DNA from: Thermoflexus sp.
GTDB taxonomy: Bacteria; Chloroflexota; Anaerolineae; Aggregatilineales; Aggregatilineaceae
DNA length: 64,000 nucleotides
Direction: 5' to 3'
NCBI GenBank assembly: GCA_020724465.1
Contig: DYGX01000001.1
Coordinates: 186,001 to 250,000 of the forward strand
Shown here: one piece after another, positions 7,923-60,947 of the stretch
Layout of the letters: the number at the start of each line of letters is the position of its first letter
Position numbering within the stretch: position 1 is the stretch's first letter
The notes under the pieces: generated by a model
The model's input: the letters and a program-made list of their open reading frames with translations, nothing else
The model's database searches: none
Told to the model about the DNA's origin: nothing
Translations under genes and position numbers: made by a program

Positions 7923-9161
7923 ATGAGCATGGATGTTCCTCGCCCGGCGGGGACGCTGCCGCCCGGCACTGCCCGCCGCGCCGACCTGGCGCGGGTTGTC
8001 CTGCTGCTCACCATGACGGCAGCGATCGCCTTCCTGGCCGGGATGCTGTTCGAGCAGACGACCGACTCGCCGCACAATGATGAAGATTTCGCGCTGTTCT
8101 GGCAGACGTGGAACATCCTGGAGCGCGAGTTCTACTATGGGCTGCCGCCGAAAGAGCAGTTGATCCAGCACGCCATTCAAGGGCTGTTGCGGGCCACCGG
8201 CGACCCCTACACCTTCTACGTGCCGCCCGCGCAGGCCGAATTCGACCGCCAGCAAACGGCGGGAGCGTTCGGTGGCATCGGGGCCGACGTCACGCTCAAC
8301 GCCGACGGCAACCTGGTGATCATCAGCCCGTACAGCGGCTATCCGGCTGCCGAAGCCGGTCTCAAACCGCAGGATCAGATTCGCGAGGTCGATGGGCGCT
8401 CGCTGCAGGGCCTGTCTGTCAGCGAGGCGGTCGCTTTGCTGCGCGGCGAGGTCGGCACGGATGTGACGATCACCGTCTACCGTCCGTCAGAAGACCGTCA
8501 GTTCACAGTCACGCTGACCCGCGTCCGCGTCGAGCTGCCCACGGTTGACGCGCGCATGATCGATGATATCGGCTACGCGCGTCTGTTTTCGTTCAACAGC
8601 ACCGCGACAGCGCAGCTTGAGGACGCGGTGCAGCGCCTGATCGGCGAGGGTGCCCGTGTCCTGATTCTCGATCTGCGCGACAACCCCGGCGGCCTGCTGG
8701 ATCAAGCCATAGGCGTCAGCGATCTGTTTCTGGGCGAGGGAGTGGTCGTCAAGCAACGCTCGCGCAGCGGACGAGAGACAGTCTACCGCTCCGAAGCGGG
8801 AGACCCTGGCGAGTCGCTCCCGATGGTTGTGCTCGTCAACGGCGGCAGCGCGAGCGCGTCCGAGGTCGTCGCCGGCGCGCTGCGCGATCACGGGCGGGCC
8901 GTGCTGGTCGGTGAAAGGACGTACGGCAAAGGCTCCGTCCAGCATGTCCACACCCTGGCTGATAATTCCCAGGTGCATGTGACTTTTGCGCTCTGGTTTA
9001 CGCCTGCCGAAACACCCATCCAGGACGAAGGTCTGATGCCGGAGATTATCGTCGAGGTGCCCGACGAGACGGAACCGGGCGAAGACCCCATTCTGGAGCG
9101 CGGGCTGGCAGTCGCCCGCGACCTGCTCGGCGCAGATGCGAGCGCCCGCGAAAACGAATGA
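7923..9161 (+). CDS. S41 (CtpA-like) serine protease, second copy
   Basis: This is a 412-residue paralogue of the preceding gene with the same plan: N-terminal hydrophobic anchor (about 20-45), helical region, PDZ domain (about 110-200, FGGIGADV), and S41 core with Ser311 in NGGSASASEV and Lys336 in TYGKGSVQ. The catalytic residues fall at exactly the same residue numbers as in its neighbour. The two proteins differ mainly in the N-terminal anchor and surface loops. The start at 7923 lies 3 bases after the upstream stop, so the two are very likely co-transcribed and perhaps translationally coupled. They could form a hetero-oligomer or split substrates, which is inference. Confidence 0.92.
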   Translation: MSMDVPRPAGTLPPGTARRADLARVVLLLTMTAAIAFLAGMLFEQTTDSPHNDEDFALFWQTWNILEREFYYGLPPKEQLIQHAIQGLLRATGDPYTFYVPPAQAEFDRQQTAGAFGGIGADVTLNADGNLVIISPYSGYPAAEAGLKPQDQIREVDGRSLQGLSVSEAVALLRGEVGTDVTITVYRPSEDRQFTVTLTRVRVELPTVDARMIDDIGYARLFSFNSTATAQLEDAVQRLIGEGARVLILDLRDNPGGLLDQAIGVSDLFLGEGVVVKQRSRSGRETVYRSEAGDPGESLPMVVLVNGGSASASEVVAGALRDHGRAVLVGERTYGKGSVQHVHTLADNSQVHVTFALWFTPAETPIQDEGLMPEIIVEVPDETEPGEDPILERGLAVARDLLGADASARENE

Positions 9162-9177
9162 GGCGAGAGACAGGCAA

Positions 9178-9639
9178 ATGAACGAAGGCCGAAAGATCGT
9201 CACCACCAACCGCAAGGCACGGCACGATTACGAAATCCTCGACACGCTCGAGGCAGGCATCGCCCTGACAGGATCCGAAATCAAATCGATCCGGGCCGGG
9301 CATGTCAACCTGCGCGAGGCCTACGTCCAGCCGCGCGACGGCGAGCTATGGCTGATCAATGCCCACATCGCAGCCTACGATCAGGCCGGCGTGTACGGGC
9401 ACGACCCGCTGCGACCGCGCAAGCTACTGCTTCACCGGCGCGAGATCGACCGGCTGGTGTCGCGCGTGCAGGAAAAAGGGCTGACGATTGTCCCGCTCAT
9501 GATGTACCTGACGCGCGGCATCGCCAAAGTGGAGATCGCCGTGGCGCGGGGAAAGAAGCAGTACGACAAGCGCGAATCGCTGCGGCAGCGCGAAAGCCAG
9601 CGCCAGATCGAGCGCTCGCTGCGCGACCGCAGCCGCTAG
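9178..9639 (+). CDS. smpB: SsrA-binding protein SmpB
   Basis: This is a 153-residue protein with the full SmpB signature: ARHDYEILDTLEAGIALTGSEIKSIRAGHVNLREAYV near the N-terminus, a central HxxxYDQAGVYGHDPLRPRKLLLHRREI segment, and a basic C-terminal tail (KKQYDKRESLRQRESQRQIERSLRDRSR). SmpB binds tmRNA and delivers it to stalled ribosomes for trans-translation. I chose the ATG at 9178 (MNEGRKIV) because it matches family N-termini and has a purine-rich Shine-Dalgarno just upstream; the longer frame from 9136 overlaps the protease. It follows two tail-specific proteases by 16 bases. That context is attractive, since tmRNA tags are degraded by tail-recognising proteases, but the S41 enzymes here are exported. 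No ssrA gene is visible in this window. Confidence 0.97.
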   Translation: MNEGRKIVTTNRKARHDYEILDTLEAGIALTGSEIKSIRAGHVNLREAYVQPRDGELWLINAHIAAYDQAGVYGHDPLRPRKLLLHRREIDRLVSRVQEKGLTIVPLMMYLTRGIAKVEIAVARGKKQYDKRESLRQRESQRQIERSLRDRSR

Positions 9640-9650
9640 GCACAGGAAGC

Positions 9651-10454
9651 GTGTTCGCCGTGCAAGGACCCTGGCCCGATTCGATCCGCGGTATTAACGA
9701 CCTGCCCGGGCCGGAGAAGCGCGCCATCTACCGAACCCTGATTCCGGACTGGGTTTTCACGCGTTTCGACATCGACCCGGAGACGCTGACGGTCGATGGC
9801 GAGTCCGTGATCGATTTCCGCTGCCCGGCCGGCAGCAGTGCTGTTGCGCTGTCGGTGTATCATCGGCCTGGCGCCGAGGACCCGGTGCTGCACCTCAACA
9901 TGATGGACACGTTCAACAACCAGTTGATGGTCCTGATGGTGACGGTTAACGATCCGGACGCGCCTCGCTTTAACATTGATGTGGACGAAGAAGGCAGGCC
10001 GACCCAGCTTGGCACGCTCTCCCGCAACCTCCCCGAGGAAATCCGCGCCATGCAGGCGGGGTTGGCTCCGGGCCAGGTGCGGCGGGGTCTGCGCATCTTC
10101 CGGACTGGCATCCCAACCTTCGAGCTGTTCTTGAAGCGGATGGGGCATACCATCTACTTCATCGAGCCGCTGTTCTATCACAACGCCATCGCCTTCGAGC
10201 GCTACGGGTTCGCCTACGCGCGCGGTCTGCGGATGATGGAGACGATCCACGCCGAATTTCAGCCGGGCGGCGAGCTGCACGCGCGCCTGACCGGGGAAAA
10301 CCCCTTCCGCATGCCCGACGCCTGGCAGACGATTCTGGGGCGCTCGTGGGCAATTCATGACGGAATTCTCGGCCACCCCTTCACCGGGGTGCAGATGTAC
10401 AAGCGGGTCGGCGAGCGCGCCTGCATCGAGACGTTCCCCTGCGCCCGCTGGTAG
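9651..10454 (+). CDS. Conserved hypothetical protein, 267 aa
   Basis: The GTG at 9651, with AGGA a few bases upstream, starts a 267-residue soluble protein 11 bases after smpB, so it is probably in the same operon. Predicted features include an N-terminal segment (GPWPDSIRGINDLPGPEKRAIYRTLIPDWVFTRFDID), a central mixed alpha/beta region and a C-terminal part rich in aromatics with HPFTGVQMYKRV. There is no signal peptide, no membrane helix and no motif I can tie to an enzyme. Longer in-frame starts reach back to 9348 inside smpB and are judged spurious. I do not recognise the family. Confidence 0.8.
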   Translation: MFAVQGPWPDSIRGINDLPGPEKRAIYRTLIPDWVFTRFDIDPETLTVDGESVIDFRCPAGSSAVALSVYHRPGAEDPVLHLNMMDTFNNQLMVLMVTVNDPDAPRFNIDVDEEGRPTQLGTLSRNLPEEIRAMQAGLAPGQVRRGLRIFRTGIPTFELFLKRMGHTIYFIEPLFYHNAIAFERYGFAYARGLRMMETIHAEFQPGGELHARLTGENPFRMPDAWQTILGRSWAIHDGILGHPFTGVQMYKRVGERACIETFPCARW

Positions 10455-10462
10455 TCTGGCGG

Positions 10463-10491
10463 TTGCCCGGCGCCGGGGCGCGTGGTACTAT
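10463..10491 (+). promoter_or_regulatory. Promoter of tRNA-Arg
   Basis: TTGCCC (10463-10468), an exact 17-base spacer and TACTAT (10486-10491) place a start about 6-7 bases later, just ahead of the tRNA at 10504. Confidence 0.6.
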
Positions 10492-10503
10492 GGTGGACGA
10501 TGA

Positions 10504-10576
10504 GCCGCCGTAGCTCAGCGGATAGAGCGCTAGTCTTCGGAACTAGGCGTCGCGGGTTCGAATCCTGCCGGCGGTA
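10504..10576 (+). tRNA. tRNA-Arg (anticodon TCG)
   Basis: A 73-base cloverleaf can be folded by eye. The acceptor stem is GCCGCCG/CGGCGGT (first pair G-U), with D arm GCTC...GAGC, anticodon stem CTAGT/ACTAG and loop CTTCGGA giving anticodon TCG (reads CGA). The T arm is GCGGG-TTCGAAT-CCTGC with one G-U pair, and the discriminator is A. The CCA end is not encoded. Confidence 0.95.
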
Positions 10577-10612
10577 CTGCTTCAAATCAAGCCGAATCGC
10601 TCGTCTGCCGGG

Positions 10613-10641
10613 TTGATCGTCCTCCCTGACGATGCTACAAT
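10613..10641 (+). promoter_or_regulatory. Promoter of trpS
   Basis: TTGATC (10613-10618), 17 bases and TACAAT (10636-10641) give a near-consensus promoter about 48 bases before the trpS ATG. No T-box or other leader structure is seen in the short leader. Confidence 0.6.
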
Positions 10642-10688
10642 CCGTGTGCTTTGCAGCGACTTCACACACGGATCAGGACATCGTCTCG

Positions 10689-11723
10689 ATGAGCGAAACC
10701 CGCCCACCCCAGCGCAACAAGCGCGTTCTCTCTGGCGTTCAGCCTTCCGGCAATCTGACGATTGGCAACTACCTCGGCGCGCTCAAACAGTGGGCGCGCG
10801 AGCAGCACAATTACGAAAGCTTTTTCTGCGTTGTGGACCTGCACGCGATCACCGTGCCCTACGACCCGGCCACCCTGCGCGCGAAAACCCGCGAGGTCGC
10901 CGCCCTCTATCTGGCCTGCGGCATCGATCCGGCGATCTCGACCGTGTTTGTGCAGTCTCACATCCCGGCGCACAGCGAGCTGGCGTGGCTGCTCAACTGC
11001 GTGACTCCGCTCGGCTGGCTGTACCGGATGACTCAGTTCAAGGACAAGGCCGCCAAGCAGCAGGCCGAGTCGGTCAGCGCCGGCCTGCTCAACTACCCGG
11101 TGCTGATGGCAGCCGACATTTTGCTCTATCAGGCCGATGCCGTCCCGGTGGGCGATGACCAGCGCCAGCATCTGGAGCTGACGCGCGACCTGGCGCAGCG
11201 TTTCAACCACCTTTTCGGCGAAACCTTCACCATTCCCGAGCCGATGATCCCGCCGGCCGGGGCGCGGATCCGCGCGCTGGATGACCCCACGGTCAAGATG
11301 AGCAAGAGCGAGGTGTCGTCGGAGTATCATGCCGTCTATCTGCTCGACCCGCCCGACAAAGCTCGCAAGAAGATCATGCGCGCGGTGACAGACTCCGGGC
11401 GGGAAATCCGGTTTAGCGACGATCCGGAGCGGGCCGGGGTCAATAATCTGCTCGAGCTGTATGAAGCTATGACCGGTGAGACGCGCGAGGCAATCGAGGC
11501 GCACTTCGCTACAGCACGCGGCTATGGCGATCTGAAGAAGGAAGTGGCCGATGTGCTGATCGCCACGCTGGAGCCGATTCAAGCGCGCTATCACGAGCTG
11601 ACCCGCGACGTCAGCTACATCGACGGCCTGCTCGCCGAGGGAGCAGCGCGGGCGCGCGTCGTCGCGAACGCGACGCTCGATCTGGTCCGCGAGCGGATGG
11701 GGTTCCTCAAGGCGCGCACCTAG
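10689..11723 (+). CDS. trpS: Tryptophan--tRNA ligase
   Basis: This 344-residue class I aminoacyl-tRNA synthetase charges tRNA-Trp with tryptophan using ATP. The HIGH-type motif is in GVQPSGNLTIGNYLGAL near the N-terminus, and the KMSKS loop is intact (PTVKMSKSE, about residue 200). The tryptophan-pocket segment PVLMAADILLYQADAVPVGDDQ is also present. Length matches the bacterial TrpRS family (about 330-350). The ATG at 10689 (MSETRPPQ) is chosen over 10632, which lies inside the promoter. It is followed 18 bases later by a zinc-ribbon protein gene. Confidence 0.97.
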   Translation: MSETRPPQRNKRVLSGVQPSGNLTIGNYLGALKQWAREQHNYESFFCVVDLHAITVPYDPATLRAKTREVAALYLACGIDPAISTVFVQSHIPAHSELAWLLNCVTPLGWLYRMTQFKDKAAKQQAESVSAGLLNYPVLMAADILLYQADAVPVGDDQRQHLELTRDLAQRFNHLFGETFTIPEPMIPPAGARIRALDDPTVKMSKSEVSSEYHAVYLLDPPDKARKKIMRAVTDSGREIRFSDDPERAGVNNLLELYEAMTGETREAIEAHFATARGYGDLKKEVADVLIATLEPIQARYHELTRDVSYIDGLLAEGAARARVVANATLDLVRERMGFLKART

Positions 11724-11741
11724 CCTGCGCGGAGCCGCGAG

Positions 11742-12464
11742 ATGGTGCCGGAAGATACGCTTGGCTTGCTCCCCCCGGTTCAGGGGTGTCTGTTCTGCCA
11801 CTCAGAAGGCGCCATCAGCCTGGAGGCGGGGCGCGCGCGTCTTGTGCGAAGCGCGGCTTTTCCGCTGATCAAATGTGCGCACTGCGGCAGCATCGCCGAG
11901 CTAGACGTAGACCCGGCCGATCTGGATCATTGGCGCATCCGCTATCGCAAGATCAGTCACGCTCCGCGCTACTACTATATGACTCTGCTGTTCGGGAGCG
12001 GGGCCTGGATCGAAGGGCTGCAGGCGCTCCAGTTCAGCACCCAGGGATTCGTGCAGCGACAGCGCGTTCGCCAGGCCAGCGAGGGCGATTTCTCCTGGCT
12101 GGCGCCGGTGTCCCTTGACCCGGCCCCGCCTTTCATTGTGCAGGGCGAGACGGCGCTCCTGGTCTTGCGTGCGGTATCTTTCATACGCCCGGCGCCGCAG
12201 ACCTGGCTCTTCCGCACCGGCCAGGACGAGCTTCTTGACTCGGGCAAACTCTACATCACCGACCGGAAGCTGCATCTGGTTGGCCAGCGCCGGGAGTGGT
12301 CGGTGGCCTGGGCTGACGTTCTCGAGTCAGAGTATGACGCGGACACCTGGCGCGTTCGCGTGGGCGGCGATGACAGAATGCGCCAGTTTACCGGCGCGCG
12401 CAGTGCAAATGAGGTCGATCCTCAACTAATCACTGTGATGGTAAACTATTTGAAATCGCGCTGA
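11742..12464 (+). CDS. Zinc-ribbon protein with PH/GRAM-like C-terminus
   Basis: This is a 240-residue soluble protein. The N-terminus has two CxxC knuckles, CLFCHSE and IKCAHCGS, about 35 residues apart, consistent with one zinc ribbon. The C-terminal half contains LLDSGKLYITDRKLHLVGQRREWSVAWADVLESEYD. That resembles the first strands of a PH/GRAM-like beta-barrel ('lets you see the threshold, then converts to display form' proteins of the DUF1720/short-PH type), which is inference. It lies 18 bases after trpS and probably shares its transcript. I assign no function. Confidence 0.7.
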   Translation: MVPEDTLGLLPPVQGCLFCHSEGAISLEAGRARLVRSAAFPLIKCAHCGSIAELDVDPADLDHWRIRYRKISHAPRYYYMTLLFGSGAWIEGLQALQFSTQGFVQRQRVRQASEGDFSWLAPVSLDPAPPFIVQGETALLVLRAVSFIRPAPQTWLFRTGQDELLDSGKLYITDRKLHLVGQRREWSVAWADVLESEYDADTWRVRVGGDDRMRQFTGARSANEVDPQLITVMVNYLKSR

Positions 12465-12489
12465 TTCCGTAAATGTGACCTTTAGCTGC

Positions 12490-12518
12490 TTGACAAGCAT
12501 CCCGTAGTTAACTATACT
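12490..12518 (+). promoter_or_regulatory. Consensus sigma70 promoter with no downstream gene
   Basis: TTGACA (12490-12495, perfect), 17-base spacer, TATACT (12513-12518). This is the best promoter in the window. The next plus-strand gene is more than 3 kb away, and a strong terminator follows within 85 bases, so it most likely makes a short RNA. Confidence 0.75.
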
Positions 12519-12524
12519 AAGACG

Positions 12525-12602
12525 TGTAGTGGTGTTGAATAGACATCCCACCACCCCACCCGCTTGAGCGTCGCGTCTCCCCACACGCGACGCTCGCTTT
12601 TT
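12525..12602 (+). ncRNA. Candidate small RNA (about 78 nt)
   Basis: The candidate is defined by a perfect-looking promoter at 12490-12518 and an intrinsic terminator ending in TTTTT at 12602. The predicted transcript starts near 12525. It has a first hairpin of six perfect pairs (GTGGTG 12529-12534 with CACCAC 12549-12554, 14-base loop) and a single-stranded C-rich stretch CCCACCCGCTTG (12555-12566). The terminator hairpin of 11 perfect pairs follows. No reading frame with a Shine-Dalgarno fits. The C-rich segments could pair with GGAGG-type ribosome binding sites, as in many small regulatory RNAs (inference). It lies between convergent genes, which is a common location for such RNAs. Confidence 0.5.
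12566..12602 (+). terminator. Strong intrinsic terminator
   Basis: An 11-bp perfect stem (GAGCGTCGCGT 12566-12576 with ACGCGACGCTC 12585-12595) with an 8-base loop is followed by GC and TTTTT. It ends the candidate small RNA and would also stop read-through from trpS. Confidence 0.85.
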
Positions 12603-12654
12603 CGGCCTTGTCGCTCGTCGGGATGCGAGGTTTCGTTATTCGCTGCCGGTGCAC

Positions 12655-12690
12655 AAAAGCACAGGCCGCCCGAAACGATCGGACGGCCTG
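12655..12690 (-). terminator. Terminator of the P-type ATPase gene
   Basis: CAGGCCG (12662-12668) pairs with CGGCCTG (12684-12690), and pairing continues inward past one mismatch. On the minus strand it is followed by TGCTTTTG. It lies 30 bases beyond the ATPase stop. Confidence 0.6.
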
Positions 12691-12719
12691 ATTTGTGCCT
12701 CGCGAGTGGCCGGGCGAAC

Positions 12720-15512
12720 CTACGCCGAGTGCGCGGCCCGGGCTTCGTCCCGCCGGTGTAAAGCGCGCAGATAGATCTTGGTTACCTCGGCCACCACCGC
12801 GGGGAGCAGAATCAGCGGGGCCATGTACAGCCAGTGGACCGCGCCGAGCGTCACGGTCGAGAACAAGTTCTGCAGGAACGGGATATACAGCACCGCCAGA
12901 AGCAAGATGATCGACGTCCCGACGGCGTACTGCATGTACCTGTTCGAGAATATGCCGATCCGCACCAGCGGGTACAGCTCCGAGCGCGCCGTGTAGGCGC
13001 GCAGCAGTTCCGAGAATGCCAGCGTCACAAACGCCATCGTGCGGGCCAGTTGCCAGCTATCGGGGTCGAGATGGCGCCCGATCGCGAACGCCGCCAGCGT
13101 GGCCGCCGTCTTGACGACAGTCTGGACGAGCATCCCGATCCGCATGTCGCGATCGATGATCGGTTCTTTGACGGGGCGCGGTGGATGATCCATGATGTCG
13201 GGGTCGCCCTTCTCGACTCCCAGCGCCAGCGCGGGTGCGCCGTCGGTGAGCAGGTTTAGCCACAGCAACTGGATCGGCGTGAGAGGTGCGGGCGCGCCGG
13301 CCAGCGTCGCCAGAAAGATCACGCCGATCTCTGCCAGGTTGCAGCTCAGCAGGAAGAACACGAATTTGCGGATATTGGCGTAGATGATCCGCCCTTGTTC
13401 CACGGCGGACACGATGCTGACGTAGTTGTCGTCGGTGAGCACCATGTCTGCTGTTTCTTTGGAGACGTCTGTGCCGGTGATGCCCATCGCCACACCGATG
13501 CTCGCCCGCTTCAGGGCCGGAGCGTCATTGATGCCGTCGCCGGTCATCGCCACCACGTGATCGCGCGCGCGGAAGGCTTCCACGATGCGCACTTTGTGTT
13601 CGGGCGACACGCGCGCAAACACATCCACATCGTCGATCACATCGGCCAGGGCCTCAACGGGCATCCGCTCTAGCTCGTCGCCGCGTATCACGCGCCCCCC
13701 TTCGCGCAGCAACCCGATCTCGCGGGCGATGGCGCGGGCCGTGTCCGGATAGTCACCGGTAACCATGACCGTCCGGATCCCGGCATGGCGGGCGCGGTCG
13801 ATGGCCGGCTTGACCTCGGGCCGCGCCGGGTCAATCATGCCAATCAACCCGATCAGCGTCAGGTGTTGCTCGATCGTCTCTGGTGTGATTGAGGCGGGCA
13901 GCTCATCGAGGTGCCGCTGCGCAATGGCCAGCACGCGCAGCGCGTCGGCAGCCATCTCGCTGTTGCGCTGGCGGATGCGCTCGCGCCTCGCGTCATCGAG
14001 TGGGATAGCTTTGCCATCCTCAAGAATCGCATCGCAGTGCTCAAGCAGGATTTCGGGTGCCCCTTTTGTGAACACGAGATACCCGCTGCCATCTGGCAGG
14101 CGATGAATGGTGCTCATGCGTTTGCGGCTGGAGTCGAACGGAATTTCGTTGATACGCGGATAGCGATCCTCGAGATCTTCTCGCCACAGCCCGGCCTTGG
14201 CTGCCGCGACGACCAGCGCGCCTTCGGTCGGGTCGCCTACCATCCGGTAGGTCATATCGGAGTGCCCGTTCCCGGTTTCATTTTCTGGCTCGAGCCGGGC
14301 ATCGCTGGCCAGCAGCGCCCCTTCCAGCAGGCGACGCACATCCGGTATCTGGCCCGGATCAGCCGTCTCGCCATTGCGATGAAAGGCTCCCACCGGCTGA
14401 TACCCCTGCCCCGAGATCTCATACTGCCTGCCGCCGACATAAATGCGGGTGACTGTCATCTGGTTTTGGGTCAGCGTGCCTGTTTTGTCGGAGCAAATCG
14501 CGGACGCGCTGCCCAGCGTCTCTACCGCCGGCAGCCGCCGGATGAGCGCGTTGCGCCGGATCATCTCGCGCATCCCGATCGCGAGGTTGATCGTCACAAT
14601 CGCCGGCAGCCCTTCGGGCACGGCGGCGATGGCCAGCGCGACAGCCGTCATCACGGAATCGGTCAGGGCGCCGATGAAGTCGAATTCCCCCGACGTGATC
14701 TCGCGCGCGAAAATGATCACACCCACCATCACGCAGATCGCCAGCGCGCCGACGCTCAACGTCCGGCCAAGCTGGTCGATCCGCTGCTGAAGCGGCGTTA
14801 CTTCGTCCTCGGTGGATTGAATCATATCTGCGATCTTGCCGATCGCGGTCTGCATCCCCGTGTGCACAACGACGCCGCGCCCCCGGCCATAGGTCGCAGT
14901 CATCCCGGCATACGCCATATTCTTGCGGTCGCCCAGGATCGCATTCGCGGCCACGACAGCGTTGGCGTCCTTATCAACCGGCACAGACTCCCCCGTTAGC
15001 GAGGCTTCGTCGATCTTGAGGTTGACCGTCTCGATCAGCCGCACATCCGCAGGAACGAAGTTGCCGGCTTCCAGAACGACGATATCACCGGGCACGACCT
15101 CGCTGGCGGGGATCGTCTTTTGGTGACCGTTGCGGATCACATCAGCCTCAGGGGACGCCAGCTTGCGCAGCGCAGCGAGCGCCTCTTCGGCGCGTCCTTC
15201 CTGGATGACGCCGAGCGCGGCGTTGAGCACGACGATGGCGGTAATCGCCGCCGACTCGAGCCAGTCGCCCAGGAACGCTGACAGGATGGCCGCGAAGATC
15301 AGGATGTAGATGACAAAGTTGTTGAACTGCGCCAGCAGCCGGTGCCAGAAAGTTGGTCGCGGGCGCTCGCGCAGCGCGTTGGGGCCATAGCGTTCGAGGC
15401 GGCGGGCGGCTTCTTCCTCGCTCAGGCCGCGCTTGGGGTCAGTCTCCAGTGCAGCGAGCACTTCTTCGATCGTGACACTGTGCCACTCGTAATCTGGGGT
15501 TGGCTCTCCCAT
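12720..15512 (-). CDS. Calcium-type P-type cation ATPase
   Basis: This is a 930-residue P-type ATPase of the PMR1/SERCA/PacL class that pumps cations, most likely Ca2+, out of the cytoplasm using ATP. Features in order: N-terminal cation-ATPase domain (YEWHSVTIEEVLAAL...), TM1-2, an actuator domain with the TGES loop (DEASLTGESVPV), and TM4 with AAVPEGLPAIV (the SERCA-type calcium site PEGLP). The phosphorylated Asp342 is in CSDKTGTLTQ, followed by a nucleotide-binding domain with KGAPE and the hinge TGDGINDAPAL. The six C-terminal membrane helices include NLLTDGAPALALG (calcium-site N and D). All catalytic residues are present. The ATG at 15512 is preferred because AAGGG lies about 9 bases upstream; a TTG at 15533 would add seven residues. 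Confidence 0.93.
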   Translation of the reverse strand: MGEPTPDYEWHSVTIEEVLAALETDPKRGLSEEEAARRLERYGPNALRERPRPTFWHRLLAQFNNFVIYILIFAAILSAFLGDWLESAAITAIVVLNAALGVIQEGRAEEALAALRKLASPEADVIRNGHQKTIPASEVVPGDIVVLEAGNFVPADVRLIETVNLKIDEASLTGESVPVDKDANAVVAANAILGDRKNMAYAGMTATYGRGRGVVVHTGMQTAIGKIADMIQSTEDEVTPLQQRIDQLGRTLSVGALAICVMVGVIIFAREITSGEFDFIGALTDSVMTAVALAIAAVPEGLPAIVTINLAIGMREMIRRNALIRRLPAVETLGSASAICSDKTGTLTQNQMTVTRIYVGGRQYEISGQGYQPVGAFHRNGETADPGQIPDVRRLLEGALLASDARLEPENETGNGHSDMTYRMVGDPTEGALVVAAAKAGLWREDLEDRYPRINEIPFDSSRKRMSTIHRLPDGSGYLVFTKGAPEILLEHCDAILEDGKAIPLDDARRERIRQRNSEMAADALRVLAIAQRHLDELPASITPETIEQHLTLIGLIGMIDPARPEVKPAIDRARHAGIRTVMVTGDYPDTARAIAREIGLLREGGRVIRGDELERMPVEALADVIDDVDVFARVSPEHKVRIVEAFRARDHVVAMTGDGINDAPALKRASIGVAMGITGTDVSKETADMVLTDDNYVSIVSAVEQGRIIYANIRKFVFFLLSCNLAEIGVIFLATLAGAPAPLTPIQLLWLNLLTDGAPALALGVEKGDPDIMDHPPRPVKEPIIDRDMRIGMLVQTVVKTAATLAAFAIGRHLDPDSWQLARTMAFVTLAFSELLRAYTARSELYPLVRIGIFSNRYMQYAVGTSIILLLAVLYIPFLQNLFSTVTLGAVHWLYMAPLILLPAVVAEVTKIYLRALHRRDEARAAHSA

Positions 15513-15656
15513 CCGACTACCCTTCGGTGACAAGGCAAAAGCATCCGTACAATCATATCATACCGCGGTAAAATGGGGTCAGTGCCCCTCCCAAAGAATG
15601 GGGGGCCTGGGACGCCGCCGCGTCTTAGAGAATGCAGTGCCGGATTGCCCGGAGTG

Positions 15657-15665
15657 TGTTATACT
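15657..15665 (+). promoter_or_regulatory. Extended -10 promoter of the repair operon
   Basis: TGT directly precedes TATACT (15660-15665), 39 bases before the first gene of the helicase-nuclease operon. The -35 is weak. It is the only clear promoter seen upstream of five closely packed genes. Confidence 0.45.
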
Positions 15666-15704
15666 TAAGCGTTCAGAACAAATGTTTGCACATAGGCGCA
15701 CGCT

Positions 15705-17768
15705 ATGAACCGTTCGCGTTTCATCGAGGGGCCAGCCGGCAGCGGCAAGACAACCGCCGCCATCGAGCATGTCCACGCGCTGCTGCGGGATGGCGTCCCG
15801 GCAGAGCAGATTCTGATCCTGGTGCCGGCCCGCTCGCTCGGCACGCCGTTTCAGCGTGCGCAGGCAACGCCGGACTGGCCGCCCGGTGCTCCGCTGGACG
15901 TTGTTACGCTGGGCGGTCTGGCACGGCGCGGCATTGAGCTATTCTGGCCGCTGATCGCTCGCCGCGCCGGGTTCCGCGACCCGCTGCGCGAGCCGCGCTT
16001 CCTCACGCTCGAGACGGCGCAATATTACATGAACCGGCTGGTGGCCGAACAGATTCGCAGCGGGGTATACGATAGCATCAGCGTGCGGCGCAGCCAGATC
16101 ATCCGCCAGACGCTCGACAACCTTGCCAAGGCTGCCGTCAATGGATTCACTCTCGAAGAGGTCGAAGCCCGGCTGATCACGGCCTGGGGCGACCGGCACT
16201 CCAGCCGCCCGCCGGTCTACCGCGCCAGCGTGGATCTCGCTCGCCGCTTCCGCGCGCTCTGCCAGGAAAACAACCTGCTCGACTTTTCCTACCAGATCGA
16301 CCTGTATGCCCGCCATCTGCTGCGCGAGCCGCAGTACCGCGCGTGGTTCGCGGGCCAGTACCGGCATCTGGTGGCCGACAACCTCGAAGAGAACGTGCCG
16401 GTTGTGGCCGACTTCATCCGCTGGGCGTGGGACGCGCTCGACACTGCACTGCTGGTCTACGATCGCGACGCCGGCTACCGCGTGTTCCTCGGCGCCGATC
16501 CCAGCGGCATGGCGGAGCTGGCCGACCTCTGCCAGGAAGTCGAGCATCGCGAGCCAGCAGGGGTCTCCGAGACTCCGCTCAACGCCCTGTCGAGCACACT
16601 CGCCGCCCTGCTTGACGGCGCGCGCGTGGACGAGAGCGAGCCGAGCATTGAGCCGGGGCTGGCGCTGAGCGTGCAGACGCACAGGTTCTTCCCCCAGATG
16701 GTCGACGGCGTGGTAGACGAGATCGCCGCGCTGGTCGAAGCGGGGACGCCGCCGGGTGAGATCGCGGTCCTGGCGCCGCTGTTGGGCGACTCGCTACGCT
16801 TTGAGCTGATCGACCGCCTGGAAGAACGGGGGATCCGCGCCGTCTCGCACCGGCCCTCGCGCGCGCTGCGTGATGAACCGGCGGCGCGTGCCATGCTGAC
16901 TCTGATGACGCTCGCCTATCCGGACTGGGGAATTCACCCGCCAGTGCTCGACGTCGCCGATGCGCTGCAGCAGGTTATCGAGCCGCTCGACCCGATCCGC
17001 GCCTGGCTGCTGGCGCAGATCGTCTACCGGCCCGGATCCGGCAGCCTCGGCTCGTTCGATGTGATCAAGCCGGGGATGCAGGAACGCATTTCCTACCGCA
17101 GCGGTGAGCAGTACGAGCGGCTGCGCAGCTGGCTGCTGGCGTTTTCCGAGGACGCGCCCACCTCGCCGCCGGATCACTTCCTCAGCCGGCTCTTTGGCGA
17201 GGTGCTGTCGCAGCCGGGGTTTGGCTTCCATGCCGATCTGGAAGCGGGTCGGGTGATCGCCGAGCTGGTTGAGTCCGCCCGCAAGTTCCGCCAAGTCCTG
17301 CACCCGGACGGCGCCGACGACTGGCGCGAGCCAACCCGCGAGTACTACACGCTGGTGCAAGAAGGGCTGCTGGCCGCACAGTATCTGTCAAGCTGGCAGA
17401 TGGAGCAGCAAGATGCCGTATTTCTTGCCCCGGCATATACCTTTCTGATGCGCAACCGGGTTGTCGACCACCAGTTTTGGCTTGATGTCGGGAGCAGCGT
17501 GTGGTGGGAACGCCTGGAGCAGCCGTTGACTCACCCGTACGTGCTGGCCCGCAGCTACCCTGCCGACCAGATCTGGACCGACGATCTGGAGTTCTACGCG
17601 CGGCGTGATGCGCTGCGCAGACTGGTGTTGGGCTTGGTGCGGCGCTGTCGCGAGCGCGTACACCTGGCGGTCTGCAACCTGGGCGAGAGTGGCTATGAAC
17701 AGCGCGGCCCACTGCTGCAGATCATCCAGCGCCTGCTGCAGCCTCAGGCCAGTGAGGGGGATGTGTAA
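15705..17768 (+). CDS. Degenerate SF1 helicase-like subunit (AddB-like)
   Basis: This 687-residue protein begins with an intact Walker A motif (GPAGSGKT, residues 9-16). It continues with UvrD/AddB-like segments: QILILVPARSLGTPFQ (motif Ia region), a Walker-B-like HLVADNLEEN in place of the DExx box, and FLGADPSG (motif III-like). The C-terminal RRCRERVHLAVCNLGESG is reminiscent of motif VI. Without a proper DExD/Q motif, ATP hydrolysis or translocation may be impaired. The order resembles the AddB subunit of AddAB, whose helicase site is inactive and which scans for Chi, but the C-terminal nuclease of AddB is absent here and is encoded two genes later. Its stop abuts the next gene's ATG (17769), so expression is probably coupled. 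Confidence 0.75.
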   Translation: MNRSRFIEGPAGSGKTTAAIEHVHALLRDGVPAEQILILVPARSLGTPFQRAQATPDWPPGAPLDVVTLGGLARRGIELFWPLIARRAGFRDPLREPRFLTLETAQYYMNRLVAEQIRSGVYDSISVRRSQIIRQTLDNLAKAAVNGFTLEEVEARLITAWGDRHSSRPPVYRASVDLARRFRALCQENNLLDFSYQIDLYARHLLREPQYRAWFAGQYRHLVADNLEENVPVVADFIRWAWDALDTALLVYDRDAGYRVFLGADPSGMAELADLCQEVEHREPAGVSETPLNALSSTLAALLDGARVDESEPSIEPGLALSVQTHRFFPQMVDGVVDEIAALVEAGTPPGEIAVLAPLLGDSLRFELIDRLEERGIRAVSHRPSRALRDEPAARAMLTLMTLAYPDWGIHPPVLDVADALQQVIEPLDPIRAWLLAQIVYRPGSGSLGSFDVIKPGMQERISYRSGEQYERLRSWLLAFSEDAPTSPPDHFLSRLFGEVLSQPGFGFHADLEAGRVIAELVESARKFRQVLHPDGADDWREPTREYYTLVQEGLLAAQYLSSWQMEQQDAVFLAPAYTFLMRNRVVDHQFWLDVGSSVWWERLEQPLTHPYVLARSYPADQIWTDDLEFYARRDALRRLVLGLVRRCRERVHLAVCNLGESGYEQRGPLLQIIQRLLQPQASEGDV

Positions 17769-57353: not shown

Positions 57354-58127
57354 ATGACTATGGCTCAGTCTAACGATACGACAGCATTCTACGACGATGT
57401 GGCCGAGGACTATCATCTCAGGTATCGCGACTGGGATGCGGAGCTGGATCGCGAGGGGTTGAACCTGCGCCGCTTCTTCCGCGATCGCGATGTGAAAACG
57501 GTGCTGGATGCCTCGTGCGGGCCGGGCACGCAGGCGATCGCGCTCGCACGGCTGGGCTACACGGTCACCGCCGCCGATCCCAGTGCCGGCATCCTGGCGC
57601 GCGCCCGCGAAAATGCCGCCCAGTACGGCGTGAGTGACCGGATCACGTTTGTCCAGTCGGACTTTCAGAGCCTGCTGCGCAACGTCGAAGGGCCGTTCGA
57701 CGTCGTGCTGACCAAGGGCAACTCGATCCCGCACTTGCTGCTAGACGAGCAGATCGAGGAGACGCTGTTGAATTTCAACGAACTGCTGCGCCCTGGCGGT
57801 CTGCTGCTGATCGGGATGCGCGATTTCGAGCCATTGCTCGAAGACCGCCCGCGCTTCTGGCCGGGCCGCGTCCACGACGGGCCGGACGAGCAGGTCATTA
57901 CCTTCGACATCTGGGACTGGAACGATGGTCCACCCGTCACCGTCACTTTCAACCACTTCATCGTGCGCGGTGACGGCACGACGTACAAGGCAACCAGGCA
58001 TCCGGTCGTCTTCCGCGCTCTGACCGCGGCGGAAGTCGAAGTCGTGATGCTGGAAGTCGGCTTCGAGAATATTCAGTCGCACCACGATCGCTGGGAGCTG
58101 CTGATTACCGCCACGAAGCCGGCCTGA
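57354..58127 (+). CDS. SAM-dependent methyltransferase
   Basis: This 257-residue class I methyltransferase begins right after the T-box. It has the SAM-binding motif VLDASCGPGTQAIALARLGYTVTAADPSAGIL, the motif-II-like VQSDFQSLLRNVEGPFDVVLTKGNSIPHLL, and a C-terminal beta extension (TVTFNHFIVRGDGTTYKATRHPVVFRALTAAEVEVVMLEVGF). The closest family resemblance is to glycine/sarcosine N-methyltransferase-like or small-molecule methyltransferases. The substrate cannot be read. It is the first gene under the valine T-box, so its level should follow valyl-tRNA charging. The second ATG at 57360 is another possible start. Confidence 0.88.
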   Translation: MTMAQSNDTTAFYDDVAEDYHLRYRDWDAELDREGLNLRRFFRDRDVKTVLDASCGPGTQAIALARLGYTVTAADPSAGILARARENAAQYGVSDRITFVQSDFQSLLRNVEGPFDVVLTKGNSIPHLLLDEQIEETLLNFNELLRPGGLLLIGMRDFEPLLEDRPRFWPGRVHDGPDEQVITFDIWDWNDGPPVTVTFNHFIVRGDGTTYKATRHPVVFRALTAAEVEVVMLEVGFENIQSHHDRWELLITATKPA

Positions 58128-58164: not shown

Positions 58165-58304
58165 GTGTCGCTTGTTGTTGAGGGTGTCGCTGGCGGCAGC
58201 ACGGGCGCTGCCGGGGGGTGGTGCCGGGTGACAGGCAGCCCGGCACGGCCAGAGCACGTCGATCACGTACTGGAAACACGCAGGACATCACTACCGAGGA
58301 AACC

Positions 58305-58308
<4 letters not shown>
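58165..58308 (+). CDS. Possible translated short ORF coupled to valS (47 aa)
   Basis: A GTG at 58165 is preceded by AAAGGGGGTGATC (58149-58161), a near-perfect match to the extended Shine-Dalgarno AAGGAGGTGATC complementary to the 16S 3' end. The frame (LVVEGVAGG..., with Val-Val near the start) stops at TGA 58306-58308, overlapping the valS ATG (58305) as ATGA. Two hairpins lie inside it. It could be a regulatory leader or a coupling peptide; no protein family is recognised. Its reality needs expression or conservation data. Confidence 0.35.
58194..58246 (+). other. Two hairpins in the valS leader
   Basis: CGGCAGC (58194-58200) pairs with GCTGCCG (58207-58213), and GTGCCGGG (58221-58228) pairs with CCCGGCAC (58239-58246). 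No T-run follows either, so they are not ordinary terminators. Confidence 0.5.

Positions 58309-60947
<2,639 letters not shown>

Follow-up and report, generated by a model that had tools for sequence, protein, structure and literature searches.

A putative small RNA gene with a conserved C-rich linker in two families of one Anaerolineae order

The locus lies in a 64-kb window (the whole stretch of 64,000 nucleotides that was analyzed), where trpS is followed by a gene for a 240-aa protein (11742–12464, plus strand), a predicted small RNA (sRNA) gene, and a cation ATPase gene on the opposite strand. The 240-aa protein had no Pfam or NCBIfam match, and the sRNA promoter starts 26 bases past the end of its frame. 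Copies of the locus were compared across the window's own family (f1, 18 genomes) and a second family of the same order (f7, 11 genomes). The parts of the window copy are listed below.

12490–12518, plus strand: sigma-70-type promoter, TTGACA-17-TATACT; both hexamers in place in 19/19 copies
12525–12602, plus strand: predicted sRNA transcript of about 78 nt; covariance-model match, fold z = -5.4
12529–12554, plus strand: 5′ hairpin as predicted by folding for the window copy, 12529–12534 paired with 12549–12554
12544–12562, plus strand: C-rich linker CATCCCACCACCCCACCCG, the proposed pairing region; identical in 14/14 f1 copies
12553–12562, plus strand: 3′ half of the linker, ACCCCACCCG; kept as ACCYCACCCG in f1 and f7, 19/19 copies
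12566–12595, plus strand: 11-bp terminator-type hairpin; folding and covariation
12596–12602, plus strand: U run, GCTTTTT, 3′ of the hairpin

The promoter is made up of a -35 box (TTGACA, 12490–12495), a 17-base spacer, and a -10 box (TATACT, 12513–12518). It has 11 of 12 consensus letters and was the best of six promoters within 9000–16000. The degenerate pattern TTGAC[A/G]-N16-18-TA[T/C]A[A/C/T]T matched only here on both strands of the window, which bears out the description of this promoter in a first-pass annotation as the best in the window. The sRNA would be transcribed from the promoter at 12490, with its 5′ end placed about 7 nt past the -10 box and its 3′ end at about 12602. The 11-bp perfect terminator noted in that annotation was confirmed: its arms (GAGCGTCGCGT, 12566–12576, and ACGCGACGCTC, 12585–12595) enclose a C-rich loop (CTCCCCAC, 12577–12584) and are followed by the U run to 12602. 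The window copy thus ends in a terminator, as an independent sRNA gene should; U runs are shorter in many of the relatives. The next plus-strand frame that we take as a gene starts at 15705, in keeping with the earlier statement that no plus-strand gene follows for 3 kb; intervening plus-strand frames, such as 13911–14999 (362 aa), overlap the opposite-strand ATPase gene and were taken as spurious. On the minus strand, the convergent ATPase gene is followed by a 12-pair terminator-like hairpin at 12662–12690.

When 61 genomes were searched at the DNA level, 13 relatives, all from f1, were strongly matched (E ≤ 4e-12), with the matched stretch beginning at 12540–12542. The covariance search of related genomes suggested in the first-pass annotation was also run: 14 of the 18 f1 genomes, counting the window genome, matched strongly (E ≤ 9e-19), and five of the 11 f7 genomes matched at E ≤ 0.1 (G153, G056, G152, G060, and G023). 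The window itself was matched at 12523–12601 with 84.9 bits by a family model that was trained on the same sRNA family, the window copy among its training sequences. A weak match in G010 (E 0.72) was considered as a fifteenth f1 copy and was rejected on reading. G060 and G023 scored weakly (E ~0.002), yet in both the same promoter stands where it is expected. A stricter-filter, order-wide model search missed these two copies; therefore, divergent copies elsewhere may also have been missed. The remaining f1 genomes (G001, G002, G010, and G015) had no strong sRNA match, no trpS match (E ≤ 1e-20), and no match to the 240-aa protein; the two control genomes in the trpS search were matched. Because trpS is normally essential, the locus is probably missing from these four assemblies.

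TTGACA-16/17-TATACT is in place in all 19 copies (14 f1 and 5 f7), so the promoter is conserved, and every f1 copy combines the 17-base spacing with the full linker CATCCCACCACCCCACCCG, which was found in 0/5 f7 copies. Two f7 copies (L117 and L118) have a C-to-U change in the linker (ACCUCACCCG), and the terminator loop in f7 reads UCC followed by varied letters. When the pattern TTGACA-N16-18-TATACT was sought in 18 neighborhoods (454 kb, both strands counted), it occurred 16 times, once in each of the f1 and f7 neighborhoods L047–L062 (13 f1, 3 f7) and always at the sRNA gene; it was absent from both f4 neighborhoods. Identity to the window was 88.9%–98.3% for the sRNA core (54–63 aligned bases) in 13/13 f1 loci, 72.3%–78.7% for trpS DNA in the 10 of 13 f1 loci that matched, and 70.5%–75.6% for ATPase gene DNA in 10 loci, all figures from local alignments in which the changed 5′ hairpin falls outside the aligned part. 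The layout of promoter, 5′ hairpin, C-rich linker, and terminator hairpin is shared by 19 genomes of two families.

The surroundings of the locus are less constant. By tblastn, the 240-aa gene lies upstream in 12 of 14 f1 neighborhoods, the window included (38%–45% identity to the window protein), and the opposite-strand ATPase gene lies downstream in 11 of 14 (the window and 10 of 13 relatives); two of the three f1 neighborhoods without the ATPase gene (L049 and L055) end less than 430 bases from the sRNA gene. The element could be the mere terminator of a unit formed by trpS and the 240-aa gene, a conserved 3′ end with no separate RNA function. The 240-aa gene runs in the same direction just upstream, its stop is 54–125 bases before the linker in 9 of 10 relatives with a called frame (289 in G016), and the hairpin and U run have the form of a terminator. 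Against this, a promoter is kept at the same place in 19/19 copies, a bare terminator would not call for a loop and a 19-base linker that are invariant, and the 240-aa gene was not found in the 1.2 kb upstream in G008, where the ATPase gene is present, or in three f7 neighborhoods. We consider this explanation quite improbable. That the element acts in cis, as leader or attenuator for a plus-strand gene downstream, is highly improbable. Such a role would suit G056 and G152 (f7), where a plus-strand frame of one cluster begins 100–184 bases past the linker, and G007 (f1), where the long downstream frames are also on the plus strand, but not the window and the 10 f1 relatives in which the downstream ATPase gene is on the opposite strand, nor G153 (f7), whose first long downstream frames are likewise on the opposite strand. 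None of the three neighbor genes was found by tblastn on the 5.9-kb contig of G007 or in the three f7 neighborhoods, which argues that the element is a gene of its own. Overall, the context fits an independent gene better than an operon tail or a leader.

Coding potential was assessed across the same copies. The first-pass annotation saw no open frame and Shine-Dalgarno sequence between promoter and terminator; a 10-codon TTG frame does cross the sRNA region in the window copy, but no frame is conserved. There is no ATG, GTG, or TTG from the modeled start to the linker core in 11 of the 19 copies, and the frames of the other eight are not shared, as expected of an independent sRNA gene. The TTG frame would be the starting point for a micro-protein gene, and the reading GGGTGGGGTGGTGGGATG on the other strand in the 14 f1 copies would be that for a G-rich opposite-strand element, possibly a quadruplex, in the ATPase 3′ region. 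The scatter of frames goes against the former, and the latter has to contend with a conserved promoter directed along the plus strand and with five f7 copies that have no opposite-strand GGGATG. We regard either as extremely improbable.

The 78-nt strand has a predicted folding energy of -29.7 kcal/mol (z = -5.4), and none of 200 shuffles folded equally well or better. RNAalifold, applied to a MAFFT alignment of 14 copies in which 98.5% of cells pair, returned two hairpins, the same as those drawn by hand. In that alignment, both sides changed in 5 of 15 pairs, a count reached in 1 of 500 shuffles. Addition of f7 copies to the MAFFT alignment misplaced the f7 5′ hairpin, so alignments fitted to the covariance model were used instead, and another alignment, containing two opposite-strand matches, was left out of the analysis. 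Both-side changes rose to 8 of 15 pairs with 16 copies and 10 of 15 with 19, neither equaled in 500 shuffles, although these two alignments are biased toward the structure of the model to which they were fitted. The shuffles ignore relatedness; slid controls were lower, at no more than five pairs. These data indicate a conserved secondary structure with covariation, as expected of an independent sRNA gene. The first-pass annotation had counted a lack of conservation of either hairpin in relatives against its candidate sRNA; on this count the idea survived, and it is supported by the recurrence of promoter, covarying hairpins, and linker in both families. Action in trans on ribosome-binding sites is an inference.

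The earlier structural description needed some revision. It gave a 6-bp upstream hairpin, which is predicted for the window copy but in that form only there: 11 of 13 f1 relatives have a GTCC/GGAC hairpin right before the C-rich stretch, and L014 and L015 are altered at this position. By inspection, the window copy could form an alternative hairpin at the relatives' place (12532–12536 with 12542–12546). The 5′ hairpins of f7 use other letters, with covarying replacements, and pairing is retained in most copies; in L032 and L034 (f1), hairpin 1 is not at the usual place in the single-sequence minimum-energy fold. The C-rich stretch was described as single-stranded. This was upheld for 18 of the 19 copies, in which the linker core ACCYCACCCG is predicted to be unpaired with a mean probability of 0.77–0.98, but the window copy is the exception (0.45 for the core and 0.36 for the AUCCCACC part). 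Its linker is predicted to be half hidden because GUGGUG of the 5′ part pairs with CACCAC. Part of the linker is also paired in the prediction for L007 (as L031). The C run of the terminator loop is predicted to be unpaired at 0.90–1.00 in all 19 copies. Predictions for the linker (18/19) and the loop (19/19) thus provide an unpaired C-rich stretch of the sX13 and B11/6C kind.

At gathering score, the Rfam library did not match the sRNA in the window, nor anything in nine homolog loci; its only matches in the whole window were one T-box and two tRNAs. The T-box leader (RF00230, 57097–57323, plus strand, 115.9 bits) precedes a 257-aa frame that is methyltransferase-like by eye (57354–58127), and a long frame 3′ of it (58218–60947) resembles by eye a valine-type tRNA synthetase. 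With E relaxed to 5 over 321 bases around the gene, only RcsR1 appeared (E 0.67), downstream and outside the gene. The library presumably holds a 6C family; the 6C covariance model had no match at gathering score in the window or the nine homolog loci, and none near the gene with E up to 5. The Chloroflexi-1 model (RF01698) was also without a match in the window, the surroundings of the gene, and the nine homolog loci.

Searches of the order, class, and phylum gave nothing convincing outside f1 and f7; the model searches were strict-filtered, and the class and phylum samples were 396 and 400 genomes. At E ≤ 0.01 the covariance model matched eight class and three phylum genomes, the window genome included in both counts, and the listed matches other than G000 and G006 resembled, by eye, ordinary terminators or coding sequence lacking the promoter. 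Weak model matches in G025, G011, G010, and G016 (L039, L041, L042, L043, and L046) were dropped on reading, and L044 and L045 are by position the opposite strand of the sRNA gene's own hairpin. A promoter-plus-linker pattern, which misses three known f7 copies, matched 19 of 154 genomes of the order (14 f1, 2 f7, and 3 f3). The f3 places (L158–L160) were rejected because reading and folding found no terminator hairpin. Two of them, L159 and L160 (G032 and G051; from 1501), have a consensus-like promoter, a short GC hairpin, and then a CTCACCTCACC run, with no terminator hairpin; this is perhaps another C-rich RNA of a third family. L079 and L080 (G027 and G020; f4) have, at 1501–1577, a hairpin, a C run, and a terminator hairpin with a C-rich loop, an order that resembles the sRNA. 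They lack TTGACA/TATACT and are placed shortly after an apparent gene end; they may be divergent relatives but were excluded as ambiguous. Beyond these genomes, a gapped linker-hairpin pattern run on a contig collection of 84,980 species found 12 contigs, labeled Anaerolineae (7), Anaerolineales (2), Chloroflexi (2), and Ardenticatenia (1); all had apparently been found already, so the scan tests the specificity of the pattern and adds no cases. A 16-base linker string occurred in 56 viral contigs, none with the promoter or hairpin motif beside it, and was taken as chance; plasmids gave no match.

We propose, with a probability of roughly 65%, that the locus is the gene for a free-standing sRNA of about 78 nt that acts independently of Hfq and pairs through its C-rich linker with G-rich mRNA start regions. 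That an sRNA gene is present is strongly supported by the sequence comparisons. The sRNA most likely lowers gene expression by pairing with G-rich stretches of mRNA, a mechanism suggested by its anatomy and by known C-rich sRNAs, among which sX13 and B11 would be the nearest in mode of action. The linker would pair with G-rich stretches like GGUGGGGU near the start codons of several mRNAs, and the terminator loop CTCCCCAC is a possible second pairing site, its CCCC perhaps pairing likewise. Pairing would block ribosome binding and lower translation and stability of the mRNAs without Hfq; Hfq was found in 0 of 18 f1 genomes, and the control found it in 5 of 14 named genomes.

Repeated short C-rich motifs directed at ribosome-binding sites are known from the csRNAs of streptococci and the UCCC-motif sRNAs of staphylococci, which differ from the present sRNA in sequence, phylum, and layout. 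sX13 of Xanthomonas is an independent sRNA with unpaired C-rich stretches, as here; it is reported to repress mRNAs with GGGG near the start codon, with Hfq dispensable (PMC3771888). Its C runs are in three apical loops, whereas the present sRNA has one in its linear linker and another in the loop of its terminator, and no sequence relation is shown. In mycobacterial B11/6C, a C-rich terminator loop is reported to be the seed that pairs with G tracks close to ribosome-binding sites (PMC12395582); such a loop, here a possible seed, is common to both RNAs. B11 has three stem-loops with C runs of six and nine and comes from another phylum, whereas the present RNA has two hairpins and the invariant linker CATCCCACCACCCCACCCG. 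The Chloroflexi-1 motif (RF01698), listed for Chloroflexus aggregans (PMC2864571), is likewise a candidate structured RNA of the Chloroflexota, but its model is unmatched here. Titles and abstract openings among the literature matches listed, with subscription journals mostly outside the search, included no base-pairing or C-rich sRNA in Chloroflexota and no mention of this sRNA.

Candidate targets were sought in the 18 f1 genomes as the exact 11-mer complement GGGTGGGGTGG followed by ATG within 30 bases. The search returned 64 rows, 18 of them the opposite strand of the sRNA gene itself, and the reversed control returned 22; this control has GTA at its end in place of ATG, so little can be concluded from the excess. 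The remaining 46 rows represent 44 places, and every one was read: 32 are within a frame of over 120 codons on the same strand, seven are opposite a frame of that length, and five are in neither. By eye, no gene recurred among the 44 places in the 18 genomes except for one coding match common to G000 and G001, which belong to one genus. Two places resemble the start regions of long frames, named by eye as ParA-like (G002) and PAS-like (G016). With at most one mismatch allowed, the 9-nt complement matched the window 22 times compared with a shuffle mean of 18.5, and 24 of 100 shuffles were as high, which is chance level.

The absence of a recurring mRNA target in this exact 11-mer search of 18 genomes also favors another explanation, that the sRNA is real but its C-rich strand binds a protein, or keeps one away from other RNAs, rather than pairing with mRNA. 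Identity of the 19-base linker in 14/14 f1 copies is strict for a pairing seed and would suit a protein site. The C-to-U change in L117 and L118, however, would keep pairing to G possible, and the studied sRNAs with a comparable layout are reported to work through base pairing. We regard a protein site as unlikely. If the linker is an mRNA-pairing seed, its simultaneous use on many targets would explain why the C-rich letters are almost completely conserved.

A broader proposal is tentative, at a little under even odds: that this is an undescribed sRNA family of one Anaerolineae order, a broad Hfq-independent translational repressor with two C-rich seeds, the linear linker and the loop of the terminator, and with stricter conservation than a tRNA synthetase gene since a single seed recognizes many mRNAs. 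If true, it could be one of the first trans-acting sRNA families with a definable mechanism in the Chloroflexota. It would offer a compact, conserved, and testable sRNA in bacteria where no Hfq was found, and a further case of a C-rich seed from a distant phylum, of relevance to the question whether sRNAs that act without a chaperone can generally use G-rich ribosome-binding regions as a handle.
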